DNA of 64,000 nt, taken from Halomonas denitrificans. GTDB taxonomy: Bacteria > Pseudomonadota > Gammaproteobacteria > Xanthomonadales > Wenzhouxiangellaceae. The position numbers were made by a program, and so were the translations under genes. Positions 54,418-60,088 of the stretch are shown here, one piece after another. How positions within the stretch are numbered: the first letter of the stretch is position 1; every line of letters starts with the position of its first letter. The notes under the pieces were generated by a model. That model had not been told where the DNA came from. It worked only from the letters and a program-made list of their open reading frames with translations, and ran no database searches. The stretch covers positions 558,001 through 622,000 of the forward strand of contig JAHVKF010000003.1 in NCBI GenBank assembly GCA_019800895.1, read 5' to 3'.

Positions 54418-56793
54418 TCAATCCAGCGGTTCGTCCCGTCGTTGCTCGAAGTACGCGCGCTGCGCGGCCACACCGTCGCCGAGCGCCTCCAGCGCCGCCC
54501 GGAAGCGGGGGTGGTCGCGCAAGCGATCGAATACCGGCAGGCTCTCCAACCCCCACCAGTAGTAGCGCCAGCCGCTGCGGACCAACGTCTCGAACTCGTC
54601 CAGCGCGTCCTCGTCGCGGCCCTGCAGGGTGAGCAGCCAGACGCGCTCGTAGCCGGCCACCATCCACGGGCCCTTCTCGACCCGGGTTCGCTCGATGGTG
54701 TCGGCGAGCGCCTCCAGCAGCGGGCCGTCCTGGACCGACGTGCCTTGGCGGCGCAGGCAGAGCACCGCGGTCTTGGCGGCGATCAACCGCGTCGGGTCGA
54801 CCTGCGGGGCCGCCTCGAACAGTTCCGGGAAGGACTCGCGGAGAACCTCGAGAGCGGCGTTGCAATCGGTCATCGAGTAGGCCTGGGCCAGCAGCGCCTT
54901 GGACATCGGTTCGCGGTTGCCCAGCGCGTAGATCGTCTCGAGTTGCTCGACGTGCTCGTCCCAATCGCCCTCGAAGGCCGCGATGGCCTGTCGAAGATAG
55001 GGGATGCGCAGCGGCAGGTCGTGCTCGGCCGCCAGCGCATCGGTGCATCGGCGGGCCGAGTCCGAGTCGCCGAGCTGCAGGTGGAACTCGCACACGCGGA
55101 ACCAGCGTGCGCCGGAATCGGGGTCGAGTTCGCGCTGGCGCAGGATGTAGCGCATCGCCTCGCCGGTTTCGCCGGTCTGGGCCAGGTAGGTCGCCAGCCG
55201 GTCGTAGGCCAACGGGAAATCCGGGCGGTCGCGGATGATCCGCCGCAGCCGGAACAGGGCTTCCTCGGCCCGTCCCTGGGCCCAGTAGGCGTCGGCCAGC
55301 CAGACCACCCCGATGCCGGCGAATGGATCCAGCCGCACTGCGGTCCGGAGCGGCTCGATCGCGTCCTCGTAGCGGCCGTCGCGGAACAGGATCCGTCCCA
55401 GTCCGCGCTGCGCGATGGGGTCGTTCGGGTTCAGCTCGACCGCGCGACGGTAGCTGGCGATCGCCTCGTCGATCCGGCCGCTGCGGAAATGCCAGTCGCC
55501 GGTGGCCCGGATCACCAGCGGATGATCCGGATCGATGCGCCGGGCGCGGTCGATGTACTCCTCGGTGAAATCGTGGACGTCCTCGCGCGTTCGCATCGGT
55601 CCCTGGCTGCGCTGCATGCCGATGGCATCGACCAGGCGGACCAGGGCCTCCACGTTGTCGGGGTCGAGTTCCAGTGCACGCTCGAACAGCGCGCGCGCCT
55701 CGGTCGCCGAGGCGAGCGTGAAATTGTCCGCCGCGAAACGACCCCGGGTGATCAGGTCGTGGACCTGCTGGTTCTCCGGATGGGCGGTCACGGTGTCGGC
55801 GAGCAGCGTGTCGGTGAGCGTGTCGCTGACGAGATTGGCGATCTCGTCCTGGACGTCGAACAGGTCGTCGAGCGGTCGATCGTAGGTACGCGACCACAGG
55901 TGGCGCTCGTTCCCGGTCTCGATGAGCTGGGCCAGCACACGGACCGTGTCGCCGTCGCGCTGTACGCTGCCTTCGAGCACGGCGTCCACGCCGAGCCGGT
56001 CGGCGACCTCGCGGATGCTCACGTCGCGACCCTGGAACGCGAAGGCCGAGGTGCGGGCCACGACTTCGAGCTCCGGCGACTGGGCCAGCATGTGGGTGAT
56101 CCGGTCGACAAGGCCGTCGGCGAAGAACCGGTGATCGCTGCCGGCGCTCATGTCGAGGAAGGGCAGGACGACCACCGATGGCCGAGTCTGTCCCGCAGGC
56201 TTGGACGCTGGCGCCGGGTCACCGGCCACCGGACCACCGGGCTCTGCAGGCCGGGCGTCCACCGCGATCTCTTCGCCGGAGGGCACGTCGTCCGCCCGAT
56301 CGAACAGGAACGGCGCCGCCACCGCGAGCGCAAGGGCGGCCGCCAGTGCCAGGGCGACCCCGGCGCGCGGACCGCGCGCTCGCTGCGGGTGCGGCGGCGG
56401 GATCGTTCCGCCCTCGGCCGGTGAGTCGGCGTGGTCCGCGACGGGCATCGGTCGCCCTGCGAGATCGCTCACGGCCTCCGGCACCAGCCGGTAGCCGCGC
56501 CGTGGAACCGCCACGATCACGCCGTGCGGCCGCCGCGTATCGCCCAGTTCGCGGCGCAGCGAGGACACCGCAACGTTGACCGAATCGTCGCTGGCCGCCT
56601 CGAGGTGTCCCCACACGTTCTCGATGATGTCGTCGCGGCTCAGGACGTCGCCTGCGTGCTCGACGAAGTAGGCCAGTAACGCGAGCAGCCGGGGCGCCAG
56701 AAAGCGCTCCTGGCCGTCCTGGACGATTCGGCCCCCTTCGAGATCGATCGCCCGACCCCGGATTTCGATGTTCCGCACCTGGTGATTCCCCAT
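54418..56793 (-). CDS. CadC-like membrane regulator: OmpR-type wHTH, TM, TolB_N-like and TPR domains
   Basis: A 791-residue one-component regulator. Residues 1-106 form an OmpR/PhoB winged helix (ALLAYFVEHAGDVLSRDDIIENVWG, SVNVAVSSLRRELGD, VPRRGYRLVP). One transmembrane helix lies near 142-162 (ALALAAALALAVAAPFLF). Then comes a periplasmic FlgO/TolB-N-like domain (VVVLPFLDMSAGSDHRFFADGL, VDAVLEGSVQRDGDTVRV) and about ten TPR units. Such proteins sense envelope conditions and act directly on DNA; the signal and targets are unknown. The Met in MGNHQVRNIE was taken as start. Confidence 0.85.
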   Translation of the reverse strand: MGNHQVRNIEIRGRAIDLEGGRIVQDGQERFLAPRLLALLAYFVEHAGDVLSRDDIIENVWGHLEAASDDSVNVAVSSLRRELGDTRRPHGVIVAVPRRGYRLVPEAVSDLAGRPMPVADHADSPAEGGTIPPPHPQRARGPRAGVALALAAALALAVAAPFLFDRADDVPSGEEIAVDARPAEPGGPVAGDPAPASKPAGQTRPSVVVLPFLDMSAGSDHRFFADGLVDRITHMLAQSPELEVVARTSAFAFQGRDVSIREVADRLGVDAVLEGSVQRDGDTVRVLAQLIETGNERHLWSRTYDRPLDDLFDVQDEIANLVSDTLTDTLLADTVTAHPENQQVHDLITRGRFAADNFTLASATEARALFERALELDPDNVEALVRLVDAIGMQRSQGPMRTREDVHDFTEEYIDRARRIDPDHPLVIRATGDWHFRSGRIDEAIASYRRAVELNPNDPIAQRGLGRILFRDGRYEDAIEPLRTAVRLDPFAGIGVVWLADAYWAQGRAEEALFRLRRIIRDRPDFPLAYDRLATYLAQTGETGEAMRYILRQRELDPDSGARWFRVCEFHLQLGDSDSARRCTDALAAEHDLPLRIPYLRQAIAAFEGDWDEHVEQLETIYALGNREPMSKALLAQAYSMTDCNAALEVLRESFPELFEAAPQVDPTRLIAAKTAVLCLRRQGTSVQDGPLLEALADTIERTRVEKGPWMVAGYERVWLLTLQGRDEDALDEFETLVRSGWRYYWWGLESLPVFDRLRDHPRFRAALEALGDGVAAQRAYFEQRRDEPLD

Positions 56794-57186
56794 TCCGGCG
56801 ACCGGGCGGCGCCCCATGGAGGAGTGCGCCGCGATCCGGCCGATGACCGGACGAGTGTCGCATTCCAACTCGGTTCGATCAAGCGCGAACCGTGGAGAAA
56901 AGGAGGTTTATATCGCTGAAAAATATGAACTTTGATCCGCAGGAATCGAAAGAACGGACACCGGCTGATGGTCGAATTGCAGTGGAACGCGACCGCAGGG
57001 GCGACCAGGTGCATGGTGATTCACGGGCCAGGCCTATGCCCCGCACCTCACGCGAGGACGTTTCGACCGGCGGCTTCGGAACGACCGATTGTCCATTGCC
57101 GATACGTGTTCATCCGGCTCGGCCGATCGAGAAAAACGCCGGGCGGGGCCCGGCGTCGTGGTACAGCGTCCGGCGGGGCGGCCGGG
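56794..57186. other. Gap between the CadC-like and PDZ genes
   Basis: No convincing gene lies in these 393 bases. It holds the promoter region of the CadC-like gene (an AT-rich stretch around 56905-56935, TATAAA on the minus strand) and the terminator of the PDZ operon at 57132-57156. A perfect AAGGAGGT lies at 56900-56907 but no ATG or GTG is at a usable distance. Confidence 0.55.
57132..57156 (-). terminator. Terminator of the sigma-PDZ operon (minus strand)
   Basis: On the minus strand CGCCGGGC pairs with GCCCGGCG around CCC and is followed by TTTTTC. It lies about 30 bases past the PDZ stop. Confidence 0.8.
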
Positions 57187-58287
57187 TCAGTAGGTGCCGG
57201 TCGGGACCGGAGCCGCGGGCCGTGCCGGTCGTGGCGGCCGCGGGGCGCCCATACCGACTTCGCGCTTGCGATGCAGACGTGGGAAGCGGCTTTCGGGCAC
57301 GGTGCCTTCGACCTGCTGCAGCGTGCCGTCACGCATGATCTCGAGCACCACCGTATCGCCGGCTTCGCGGTCGAGCATCGCGCGGCCCAGGTCGGCCGGG
57401 CGGCTGATGCTCTCGCCGTCGATCGACAGGATCACGTCGCCGTCGGCGAGCTGCAGCGGATTGTCGTCGCCGATTCGCAGCACGACCACGCCGTCACCGG
57501 TGCCGAAGTAGGACGCCAGGCCGTCGTGGTTGCTGACCAGGTCGGAGTCGCCGCCGAGCACGAACAGGCCGGGCAGGCGCGGCGCATGCGGTGCGTCCGG
57601 CGGCATCGGGAAGTCGCCCTCGTGCATGCGGATGATTTCCCGCTCCATGCCTTCCAGGCCCTCGCGGATCGCGTCGACGTCGAGATCGATCTCCGGGGCG
57701 AAGCGGTGAGCGAAGGCATGCAGGCCGTGTTCCGGCGCCGAGGTCTCGACGTCGAAGCTCATGCGCTGGCCGTCCCGCTCGACGACCACCGGCACCACGG
57801 TACCGGCCTCGAGATCGGCGAGGGCATCGCCGATGGTCGCGTTCGCACCGACCGCCATGCCGTTGACCTCGACGACCTTGTCGCCGCTCTGCAGGCCGGC
57901 GGCTTCGGCGCCGCCGCCGGGCGTCAGGCCGAGCACCTCGAAATCGCCGCCTTCGCCGCCGACCAGGATGCCGAGCTTCGGCGTGGTGCCGCCGAACGCG
58001 TGGGCAATGGCCGAATCGACGATGATCTCGATGTTCTCGTCGCCTTCGCCCATCTTCATCTGCCAGCGGCCCCGGTGGCCGCCCTCCTCGACCAGCTGGC
58101 GCTGGAGCCGGGCCATCCGGCGGGCGGCCTCGGCCAGTTCGGCGCGGGCGGCGTCGAGCTCGGCACGGAGTGCGTCGCGCTGCGCCTGCTGCTCTGCGCT
58201 GGTGGCGCCCTCGCTCTGGGCGAGCGCCAGCGGCGACAGCAGCAGCGCGCCGGACAACAGCAGGGGCTTGATCATCGGTCGTTTCAT
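57187..58287 (-). CDS. Exported protein with two PDZ domains, no protease domain
   Basis: A 366-residue protein with a signal peptide (LLLSGALLLSPLALA-Q). A coiled coil follows (about 27-70, ALRAELDAARAELAEAARRM). Two PDZ-like domains come next: about 105-180 (KLGILVGGEGGDFEVLGLTPGGGAEAAGLQSGDKVVEVNG, seen in pieces) and about 240-330 (YFGTGDGVVVLRIGDDNP, LADGDVILSIDGESI). The last 40 residues are Pro/Arg-rich. No catalytic Ser-His-Asp is seen, so it is a binding protein. It is the last gene of an operon with an ECF sigma factor and a membrane protein. Confidence 0.78.
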   Translation of the reverse strand: MKRPMIKPLLLSGALLLSPLALAQSEGATSAEQQAQRDALRAELDAARAELAEAARRMARLQRQLVEEGGHRGRWQMKMGEGDENIEIIVDSAIAHAFGGTTPKLGILVGGEGGDFEVLGLTPGGGAEAAGLQSGDKVVEVNGMAVGANATIGDALADLEAGTVVPVVVERDGQRMSFDVETSAPEHGLHAFAHRFAPEIDLDVDAIREGLEGMEREIIRMHEGDFPMPPDAPHAPRLPGLFVLGGDSDLVSNHDGLASYFGTGDGVVVLRIGDDNPLQLADGDVILSIDGESISRPADLGRAMLDREAGDTVVLEIMRDGTLQQVEGTVPESRFPRLHRKREVGMGAPRPPRPARPAAPVPTGTY

Positions 58288-58348
58288 GACATTCCTCCGG
58301 TTTCGGATCGGGCAAGGCCCGGTTGGGGTTCTGATTCGTTCTTCGGTG

Positions 58349-58861
58349 TCAGTAGCTGGCCAGCATCATCTCGCTGCGCCAGTCGGAACGGATGTAGCGC
58401 TGGTTGATCTCGCCGAGCAGCGCCACGCGCTCGGCCCAGAGCACCGGGTCGTAGGGCGATTGTTCGATCTGCACGTCCAGCCAGGCCAGCTCCTGCTCCA
58501 GCCGCGCGACCGAGTCGGCGGTCGATGCGCTGACCGCGCCGTAGCGGTAGTCCTCGAGCTGCGACTCGAGGGCGGACGACACGGCCTGCAGCCGGATCAG
58601 CGGGTCGATGCCGTCGTCCGGGGACGCCGGTACCGGGCCGTAGGTTCCGCGCAGCAGGGCGATGCTCAGGGCCAGCGCGGCCACGGTGGCGGCCATGGCC
58701 AGGGGCACCCAGCCGCGTCGCGGTGCACTTCCGCTACCGGATCGGGCATCCAGTGCGCTCTCGATGTCGGACCAGAGGCCGTCCGGCGCCTCGAGCGGTG
58801 GCAGCGACTTCAGGTTCAGCGGATCCCTGTTTCGGGTCATCGTGGTGTGGTCATCGGCCAT
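58349..58861 (-). CDS. Single-pass membrane protein, probable anti-sigma factor
   Basis: A 170-residue protein. The first 50 residues are cytoplasmic (SLPPLEAPDGLWSDIESALDARS), one transmembrane helix covers about 51-70 (WVPLAMAATVAALALSIALL), and the periplasmic part is helical (LEQELAWLDVQIEQSPYDP). The size, topology and position right behind an ECF sigma gene, with an 11-base overlap, are those of an anti-sigma factor, but no zinc-binding HxxxCxxC or other known anti-sigma domain is seen. A Met seven codons later is an alternative start. Confidence 0.65.
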   Translation of the reverse strand: MADDHTTMTRNRDPLNLKSLPPLEAPDGLWSDIESALDARSGSGSAPRRGWVPLAMAATVAALALSIALLRGTYGPVPASPDDGIDPLIRLQAVSSALESQLEDYRYGAVSASTADSVARLEQELAWLDVQIEQSPYDPVLWAERVALLGEINQRYIRSDWRSEMMLASY

Positions 58862-59441
58862 GGGGCATCGACCTCGCGGTGGTGTTCGCCGGTTCGGGAT
58901 CGGTCCCGGGACCGGCCGGTGGTTGCAGCGGGGCTTGCAGCCATTGGCGCGCCTTCGAACGCGCCCGGCTGAGCCGGGTCTTCGACCAGGGAATGCTCTG
59001 GTCCAGCGTTTCGGCGATCTCGCCATGGGTCAGGCCCTCCACGTCGTGGAGCCAGAGCACGGCGCGGTCGAGGGCATCCAGCCGGCCCAGGGCGCGCAGC
59101 AGGTCCAGCGCGCCATCGTGGTCCGGGGCCGCCTCGGCCGGCTCGTGGTGCTCGGGCAGCGGGTCCATCGAGCGCCGACCGGCATCCATCACCTGGTTGA
59201 CGACGATCCGCCGCAGCCAGGCGCCGAAGCGGTCGGCGCGTTCGAGCTGGGCGATCTTCTCGAAGGCCTTGACGAAGCCGTTCTGCACGGCGTCCCAGGC
59301 GGTGGCCTCGCTGCCGGACAGGCGCACCGCCAGCGTCCAGGCCGGCCGCGAATAGTCGCGGTAGACCTGCTCCTGGGTGCGCCGGCAGTCGCGCTTCAGC
59401 GCGGCCAGCGAGATGTCGTCGAGAGGCGTCGAGAAGTCCAT
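58851..59441 (-). CDS. ECF sigma-70 family RNA polymerase sigma factor
   Basis: A 196-residue ECF sigma factor. Region 2 reads ALKRDCRRTQEQVYRDYSRPAWTLAVRLSGSEATAWDAVQNGFVKAFEKI with the -10 recognition helix after it (DRFGAWLRRIVVNQVMDAGRR). Region 4 has LDRAVLWLHDVEGLTHGEIAETL and IPWSKTRLSRARSKARQWL. The start is preceded by AAAGG at eight bases. It heads an operon with a membrane protein and a PDZ protein and is probably autoregulated. Confidence 0.88.
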   Translation of the reverse strand: MDFSTPLDDISLAALKRDCRRTQEQVYRDYSRPAWTLAVRLSGSEATAWDAVQNGFVKAFEKIAQLERADRFGAWLRRIVVNQVMDAGRRSMDPLPEHHEPAEAAPDHDGALDLLRALGRLDALDRAVLWLHDVEGLTHGEIAETLDQSIPWSKTRLSRARSKARQWLQAPLQPPAGPGTDPEPANTTARSMPHGR

Positions 59442-59575
59442 TTCGGTACCTTTGACGCGGGCCATGCGAGAAAGGTCGCAGAAATTTTTCGACGGCGCCA
59501 CCGGGGACGGGCACGACGACGGCGTCCGTGGCACAGTGATGGCCCCGTATCCGAACGCAGAAGCAGATCGAAACC

Positions 59576-60088
59576 ATGGGCCGCTGGCGTCCACCCCCCG
59601 ACAAATCCAGCCCCTACGTCACAGCCGACGGGCTGACGAAGCTGAAGGCCGAGCTGAAGGACCTGTGGCGGGTCCAGCGGCCCGAAGTGGTCAAGGCGCT
59701 CGCCGCGGCCGCGGCCGAGGGCGACCGCTCGGAGAACGCCGAGTACACCTACCGCAAGAAACAGCTCGGCGGCATCGACCGACGGATCCGCTATCTCAGC
59801 AAGCGGATCGACGTGCTGAAACCGATCGAGGGCACGCCTTCGGACCCCGAAAAGGTGTTCTTCGGTGCCACGATCACTGTCGAGGATGCCGACGGTGAGG
59901 AGATCACCTACCGGATCGTGGGGCCCGACGAGATCGACGCTTCCAGGAACTGGATCTCGATCGACTCCCCGCTGGCCCGGGGACTGCTCGGCAAGCGTCT
60001 GGACGACGAGGTCAGTGTCGAAACGCCGGGCGGGATGCGGTCACTGGTGATCGTCGAGATCGAATACGAGGGGGGCGGAGGCCGCTGA
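59576..60088 (+). CDS. greB: Transcription elongation factor GreB
   Basis: A 170-residue Gre factor that restarts backtracked RNA polymerase. The N-terminal coiled coil has the acidic tip ([31 protein letters not shown], in pieces), and the C-terminal FKBP-like part has [11 protein letters not shown], then [27 protein letters not shown]. The [14 protein letters not shown] spacing favours GreB over GreA. It is divergent from the ECF sigma gene and overlaps the convergent peptidase-like gene by 48 bases. Confidence 0.94.

Follow-up and report, generated by a model that had tools for sequence, protein, structure and literature searches.

A conserved operon of an ECF sigma factor, a predicted membrane anti-sigma factor and a non-protease PDZ protein as a candidate envelope-signalling module

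Which role may be assigned to an ECF sigma gene that is followed by the genes of a single-pass membrane protein and of an exported PDZ protein devoid of a protease part? Such a set is found in the window, i.e. the whole stretch of 64,000 nucleotides analysed here from Halomonas denitrificans (contig JAHVKF010000003.1, positions 558,001 to 622,000). An earlier note, made from the sequence alone, had described it as one operon in positions 57187-59441; this was borne out, that range being the exact extent of three minus-strand ORFs (Table 1).

Operon layout, promoter and conservation

The first gene encodes a sigma factor of the ECF kind, that is a short protein with regions sigma2 and sigma4 only, both recognised above the Pfam cut-off (Sigma70_r2, PF04542, E 1.4e-11; Sigma70_r4_2, PF08281, E 7.4e-12), and the published large ECF classification may well hold its group as a numbered entry. 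The gene shares an 11-base overlap with that of the membrane protein. As far as can be read from the sequence, the set appears to be a single, complete transcription unit, since it is flanked by a promoter-like motif on the 5' side and by a hairpin plus T run on the 3' side; the hairpin was seen by folding and is absent from the output of the pattern scanner. Downstream of the operon lies a gene (54418-56868, minus strand) for a protein with a Trans_reg_C DNA-binding domain and TPR repeats, and the sigma gene is adjoined by a divergent gene (59576-60088, plus strand), the product of which we take to be GreA/GreB-like.

Table 1. Features of the operon, in positions of the window.
Feature	Position	Strand	Basis
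Predicted autoregulatory ECF promoter, TGCGACC-N15-GCGTC	59454..59480	-	12 nt 5' of sigma start codon
ECF sigma factor, 196 aa, sigma2 + sigma4	58851..59441	-	ORF and Pfam
Single-pass membrane protein, 170 aa, predicted anti-sigma factor	58349..58861	-	Homology
Cytoplasmic segment LKSLPPLEAPDGLWSDI, about residues 13-41, read as what is left of an anti-sigma domain lacking the zinc motif	58739..58825	-	Extent by inspection
Transmembrane helix, about residues 48-70	58652..58720	-	Hydropathy maximum; ends by inspection
C-terminal LASY tail, PDZ-ligand-like	58352..58366	-	Comparison of tail composition
Double-PDZ protein, 366 aa, exported, coiled-coil, no protease domain	57187..58287	-	Signal peptide by inspection; Pfam; AlphaFold2
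PDZ1, about residues 102-184	57736..57984	-	Pfam and AlphaFold2
PDZ2, about residues 249-330	57298..57543	-	Pfam and AlphaFold2
Intrinsic terminator, 10-pair hairpin + T run	57131..57157	-	Fold -19.7 kcal/mol, z -4.25

Conservation of the three-gene order, which the earlier note had set as a test, was confirmed from each of the three genes. When loci were entered with the sigma profile, 79 of 80 loci (the best 80 of 384 relatives) had the sigma, middle and PDZ genes in this order and on a single strand, the exception (L063) being a contig that stops inside the middle gene. Entry with the PDZ protein gave all three genes in order in 27/30 loci, the other three stopping before the position of the sigma gene, and all 30 of the best-scoring loci entered with the middle profile held the three genes; the three sets of loci overlap, so that the counts are not independent, and 13 of the 80 contigs, as judged by their length, also gave rows of the profiles. 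The ORFs that became rows of the first middle profile had been picked by their position between the sigma and PDZ genes; the match of the sigma factor by the single window protein, with no positional choice, was obtained in 27/30 loci. Chance clustering was rejected, because the same order recurs in distant genomes and the two neighbours tested in the window do not generally travel along, a homologue of the GreA/B-like protein being near the module in 20/80 loci and the TPR regulator in 0/80.

The carriers comprise Wenzhouxiangella and other Lysobacterales, Nevskiales, Steroidobacter and Gemmatimonadota, with Oleiagrimonas, Sinimarinibacterium, Tahibacter, Rudaea and Arenimonas among the named genera and six records from Gemmatimonadota; many of the records are metagenome assemblies. 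Within the order, the middle profile found matches in 185 of 298 genomes and 70 of 89 genera, of which those near 1e-4 may be other proteins; absence is common, as the remaining 113 genomes had no match. A search with the PDZ protein gave matches at E<=1e-5 in 60 of 101 genomes, the weak ones of which may be other PDZ proteins. In the source genome, the membrane protein and the PDZ protein, each searched singly, gave one match, and the middle profile gave two, the second perhaps being another anti-sigma factor. One further genome (G022, C1) has two module copies of equal score near both ends of its contig (5562-7132 and 3482845-3484366), perhaps an unresolved circular overlap.

The motif TGCGACC-N15-GC[AG]TC was present 5' of the sigma gene with at most one mismatch in 72/80 loci, as compared with none of 240 control stretches, it being understood that the motif was derived from an earlier set sharing genomes with these loci. 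The number of mismatches was 0 in 47 loci, 1 in 25, 2 in seven and 4 in one; no control stretch had fewer than two mismatches and seven had two. In 73 of the 80 loci, 8-16 nt separate the end of the best match from the start codon of the sigma gene as chosen by script, so the message of the operon is probably leaderless or nearly so.

The membrane protein and its carboxyl-terminal tail

The membrane protein had been described as having no recognised anti-sigma domain, which holds as far as Pfam is concerned (no family at E<=1); by homology, the protein belongs to the anti-sigma kind. Its gene lies beside an ECF sigma gene, as do those of class I anti-sigma factors, and no domain of that class is recognised by profile, the one anti-sigma match in NCBIfam (NF052375, E 0.0011) reaching 19 bits where the model requires 100. 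All over the family, however, a cytoplasmic segment of the form LxxLPxxxPPxxLWxxIxxxLD precedes the membrane helix, and in 13 of 80 homologous middle ORFs (an uncontrolled count) the motif Hx3Cx2C stands just upstream of the LxxLPxxxPPxxxW segment. Its distance to the start of the shared model is exactly 14 residues in ten of these 13 ORFs and 9 to 12 in the rest; they match the middle profile with E-values from 3e-15 to 9e-25, and originate from six Gemmatimonadota, six Gammaproteobacteria and one genome labelled Holophagae. The Pfam family zf-HC2 appeared below threshold in two of ten middle homologues scanned (E 0.13 and 0.19) and above threshold in none. The window membrane protein does not have the Hx3Cx2C zinc motif.

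According to a study on class I anti-sigma domains (PMC7406223), Hx3Cx2C is the signature of zinc binding and spans helices 2 and 3 of these domains, the helix 4 of which binds sigma2; the motif is optional, about 56% of class I anti-sigma factors carrying it, and members with and without zinc are intermixed in the tree. It is on account of the 13 motif-bearing homologues that the window membrane protein is predicted to be of the anti-sigma kind. With the class I anti-sigma factors (ASDI) it shares, besides the adjacent ECF sigma gene, homologues with Hx3Cx2C and the last helix before the membrane, whereas it lacks the zinc motif and, judged by its length, the earlier helices. Homology thus points to a reduced member, in which only the part near helix 4 would be left. 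Among the middle homologues, the anti-sigma domain occurs both in a form that has the zinc motif and in one that lacks it, the membrane-proximal part being kept. The class II anti-sigma factor CnrY is a structural analogue. The middle protein of one gemmatimonadotal locus (L136) is weakly similar to DUF3379 (E 0.011, below the cut-off), and this family may be a source of further anti-sigma factors.

Structure prediction was applied to a homologous pair (L070), the sigma factor and middle protein of which were fused in one chain; the AlphaFold2 model had a pTM of 0.36, with no interface score given, and showed three long periplasmic helices, confidently predicted, and an end with little order. 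A structure search with this model was uninformative on the middle protein, the best 50 of 262 matches being led by sigma factors, and the middle profile against solved structures had its best match at E 0.06. Alignment A6, with fewer rows (24 middle and five sigma), replaced alignments A4 and A8, which were dropped for having middle rows aligned onto the sigma half.

The carboxyl terminus of the membrane protein deserves separate attention, hydrophobic C-termini being common ligands of PDZ domains. Of the 79 complete middle proteins, 62 have F, L, I, V, M, Y or W as their final residue, as do 34 of 48 representatives sharing less than 50% identity (binomial p 1.4e-7 against 0.335, the hydrophobic fraction in the 30 residues preceding the last four), and no such bias was seen in the sigma factors (8/80) or the PDZ proteins (18/77) taken for comparison. 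Among the 17 middle proteins with another final residue, 11 end in D, and if a single terminal D or N is allowed after the hydrophobic residue, 75/79 middle proteins fit as against 20/77 PDZ proteins, a pattern picked post hoc after inspection of the data. These tails provide a strong lead that the cognate PDZ protein may bind the anti-sigma factor by its end. The first 25 rows had hinted that the PDZ protein, too, might have a ligand-like tail; this was dismissed as not general (18/77, as above).

The PDZ protein and the proposed switch

Two PDZ stretches of the third protein score above the Pfam cut-off, and a protease family was found neither above that cut-off nor in the AlphaFold2 model; as PDZ families alone exceed the cut-off, its identity as an HtrA-type protease was rejected. 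In the model, residues 30-68 form a helix, and two PDZ-like domains are predicted, for the most part at pLDDT above 90; the mean pLDDT of the whole is 76 and the pTM 0.43. The nearest solved folds are chains of DegQ/DegP and RseP, which hold PDZ pairs; thus the PDZ fold and the tandem arrangement are in common with the HtrA family (DegP/DegQ) and with RseP, and the protein differs from the HtrA family in having no protease family above the cut-off. Glycine 106 of PDZ1, invariant in 58/58 rows, presumably lies in the ligand loop, by comparison with DegP. The idea of a PDZ protein acting on the regulator is newly supported by this invariant glycine and by the PDZ-ligand-like C-terminus of the anti-sigma factor.

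The sigma factor, the lock in the membrane and the exported peptide-binding protein apparently make up a conserved, self-regulating alarm circuit. In the reading that we hold to be the probable one, though with reserve, the three genes would form a self-contained unit spanning the envelope. The second gene product, as an anti-sigma factor, would keep the sigma factor inactive at the membrane by a cytoplasmic domain that, by homology, seems to have shrunk to the last part of the class I anti-sigma domain, and its periplasmic part is predicted to be a helical bundle with a hydrophobic carboxyl tail. This tail would be bound by the periplasmic double-PDZ protein with its long helix, which may thereby shield the anti-sigma factor from a site-1 protease or present it to that protease. 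Trouble in the envelope would alter this state, e.g. when unfolded outer-membrane proteins offer free hydrophobic C-termini that compete for the PDZ groove, and cleavage at site 1 and subsequently by RseP would free the sigma factor. Regulated intramembrane proteolysis is possible in this organism because RseP is encoded in the source genome (361 bits). The freed sigma factor is predicted to transcribe its own operon from the near-leaderless TGCGACC-N15-GC[AG]TC promoter as well as a few envelope genes, among them, in some relatives, that of a secreted serine hydrolase of the beta-lactamase fold. From the interpretation in the earlier note, the sigma/regulator operon, its conserved order and the non-protease nature of the PDZ protein have been retained, and the membrane protein is now read as an anti-sigma factor by homology.

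The part of the PDZ protein in such a switch can be worded in several ways. That a single groove both clamps the anti-sigma tail and reads the C-termini left free on unfolded envelope proteins, the activity of the sigma factor then being set by competition between peptides, is a tentative proposal to which we give somewhat better than one chance in three; if true, it would mean that the sensing PDZ has been uncoupled from the protease. The protein could instead be an output of the circuit, a periplasmic chaperone or scaffold induced by the sigma factor against stress: its gene is the last in an operon predicted to be autoregulated, and the PDZ pairs closest to its own belong to DegQ/DegP, which handle unfolded proteins. 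Such a role appears rather unlikely, as the hydrophobic tails of the anti-sigma factors (62/79) and the tight linkage to the sigma gene agree better with a protein that takes part in the switch itself. As a further option, the protein might be an adaptor, handing the anti-sigma factor over to a protease once ligand is present and hence activating the switch rather than restraining it. The modelled arrangement of tandem PDZ domains beside a long helix would suit such an adaptor, and the anti-sigma tail would be a plausible docking site for it; the operon, however, has no protease gene, and sequence does not tell whether the protein acts positively or negatively. We regard this reading as unlikely, at about one chance in five.

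Known systems with a comparable arrangement are RpoE-RseA-RseB with DegS/RseP of E. coli and AlgU-MucA-MucB with AlgW of Pseudomonas, which likewise have an ECF sigma factor, a single-pass anti-sigma factor and a periplasmic regulator. The PDZ domains of DegS (PMC8103513) and AlgW (PMC8545111) are reported to read C-termini. In contrast to these systems, the module has its PDZ domains in an operon-encoded protein that is no protease, and the ligand-like tail is on its own anti-sigma factor. A diverged copy of RpoE-RseA-RseB would have the same logic and the same order of genes (sigma, membrane regulator, periplasmic protein) and is nonetheless a highly improbable and largely refuted explanation, since the second and third proteins match neither the RseA nor the MucB_RseB families, Pfam finding no RseA_N or MucB_RseB domain in the window proteins, and a separate RseA_N locus exists in the genome at C3:727094. 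Because of this RseA_N gene elsewhere, the module is an additional circuit, apart from the RseA locus of the genome. No description of the operon as a unit was found in the titles and openings of abstracts among the papers listed, subscription literature being mostly outside that search, and the module is filed here as a variant of ECF/anti-sigma signalling in which the way of sensing the envelope would be as proposed above. If correct, it would represent a widespread envelope-stress circuit beside the classical sigma-E, from Lysobacterales to Gemmatimonadota, and its sharp promoter motif and short tail make it directly testable.

Candidate targets outside the operon

A stricter form of the motif gave 31 matches in 29 of the 298 genomes, the reversed pattern giving six; 26 of the 31 lie 573-1116 bp 5' of the middle gene on the same strand, one precedes a sigma gene (G308) and four are elsewhere. 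The first, over-strict pattern had given two matches. In the 43 genomes of the family, TGCGACCNTTN{11,13}GCGTC yielded 19 matches versus ten when reversed; by inspection, 11 of them precede the sigma operon and four precede genes of PF00144-kind hydrolases, and the remainder consists of one before another apparently secreted protein and three elsewhere. The looser motif matched 11 times in the source genome versus seven times when reversed, so that most of these matches are probably due to chance; two precede PF00144 genes (L148 and L152, the latter assigned from a scan of part of the protein). The regulon looks narrow from these motif matches; its predicted members are the module itself and, in some lineages, a small number of envelope genes.

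One candidate target in the source genome (C2:193155-194659; L148, L171) encodes a secreted serine hydrolase of the beta-lactamase fold with an extra N-terminal part and has the module motif upstream. Close homologues were found in G002 (a fragment), G010, G015 and G032, so that five of the 43 family genomes have the gene. The cases in G000 (the source genome), G002 and G010 came via the motif search and are thus no test of the motif; the two orthologues found by the protein alone (G015 and G032) are both preceded by the motif with one mismatch. The motif also stands before a hydrolase of the same kind, interrupted as judged by eye, in a genome of another family (G100). A further 46, more distant matches of the hydrolase were obtained in 200 genomes; of the 27 for which loci were examined, two (G193 and G208) had the motif with at most one mismatch, 29-34 nt 5' of the hydrolase start (rough p 2e-4, uniform base frequencies). 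As a target, the hydrolase would suggest that one output of the circuit lies in envelope or peptide chemistry. Most module-bearing relatives are without a close copy of it, and the main reading of the sigma factor, anti-sigma factor and PDZ protein does not depend on these cases. In G002 (L156) and G100 (L217) the motif precedes copies that are shortened or interrupted, so that decay of this target may be under way in some lineages. In another family (L192, G056:C40), the motif is placed before the gene of a small, apparently secreted protein of no known function.
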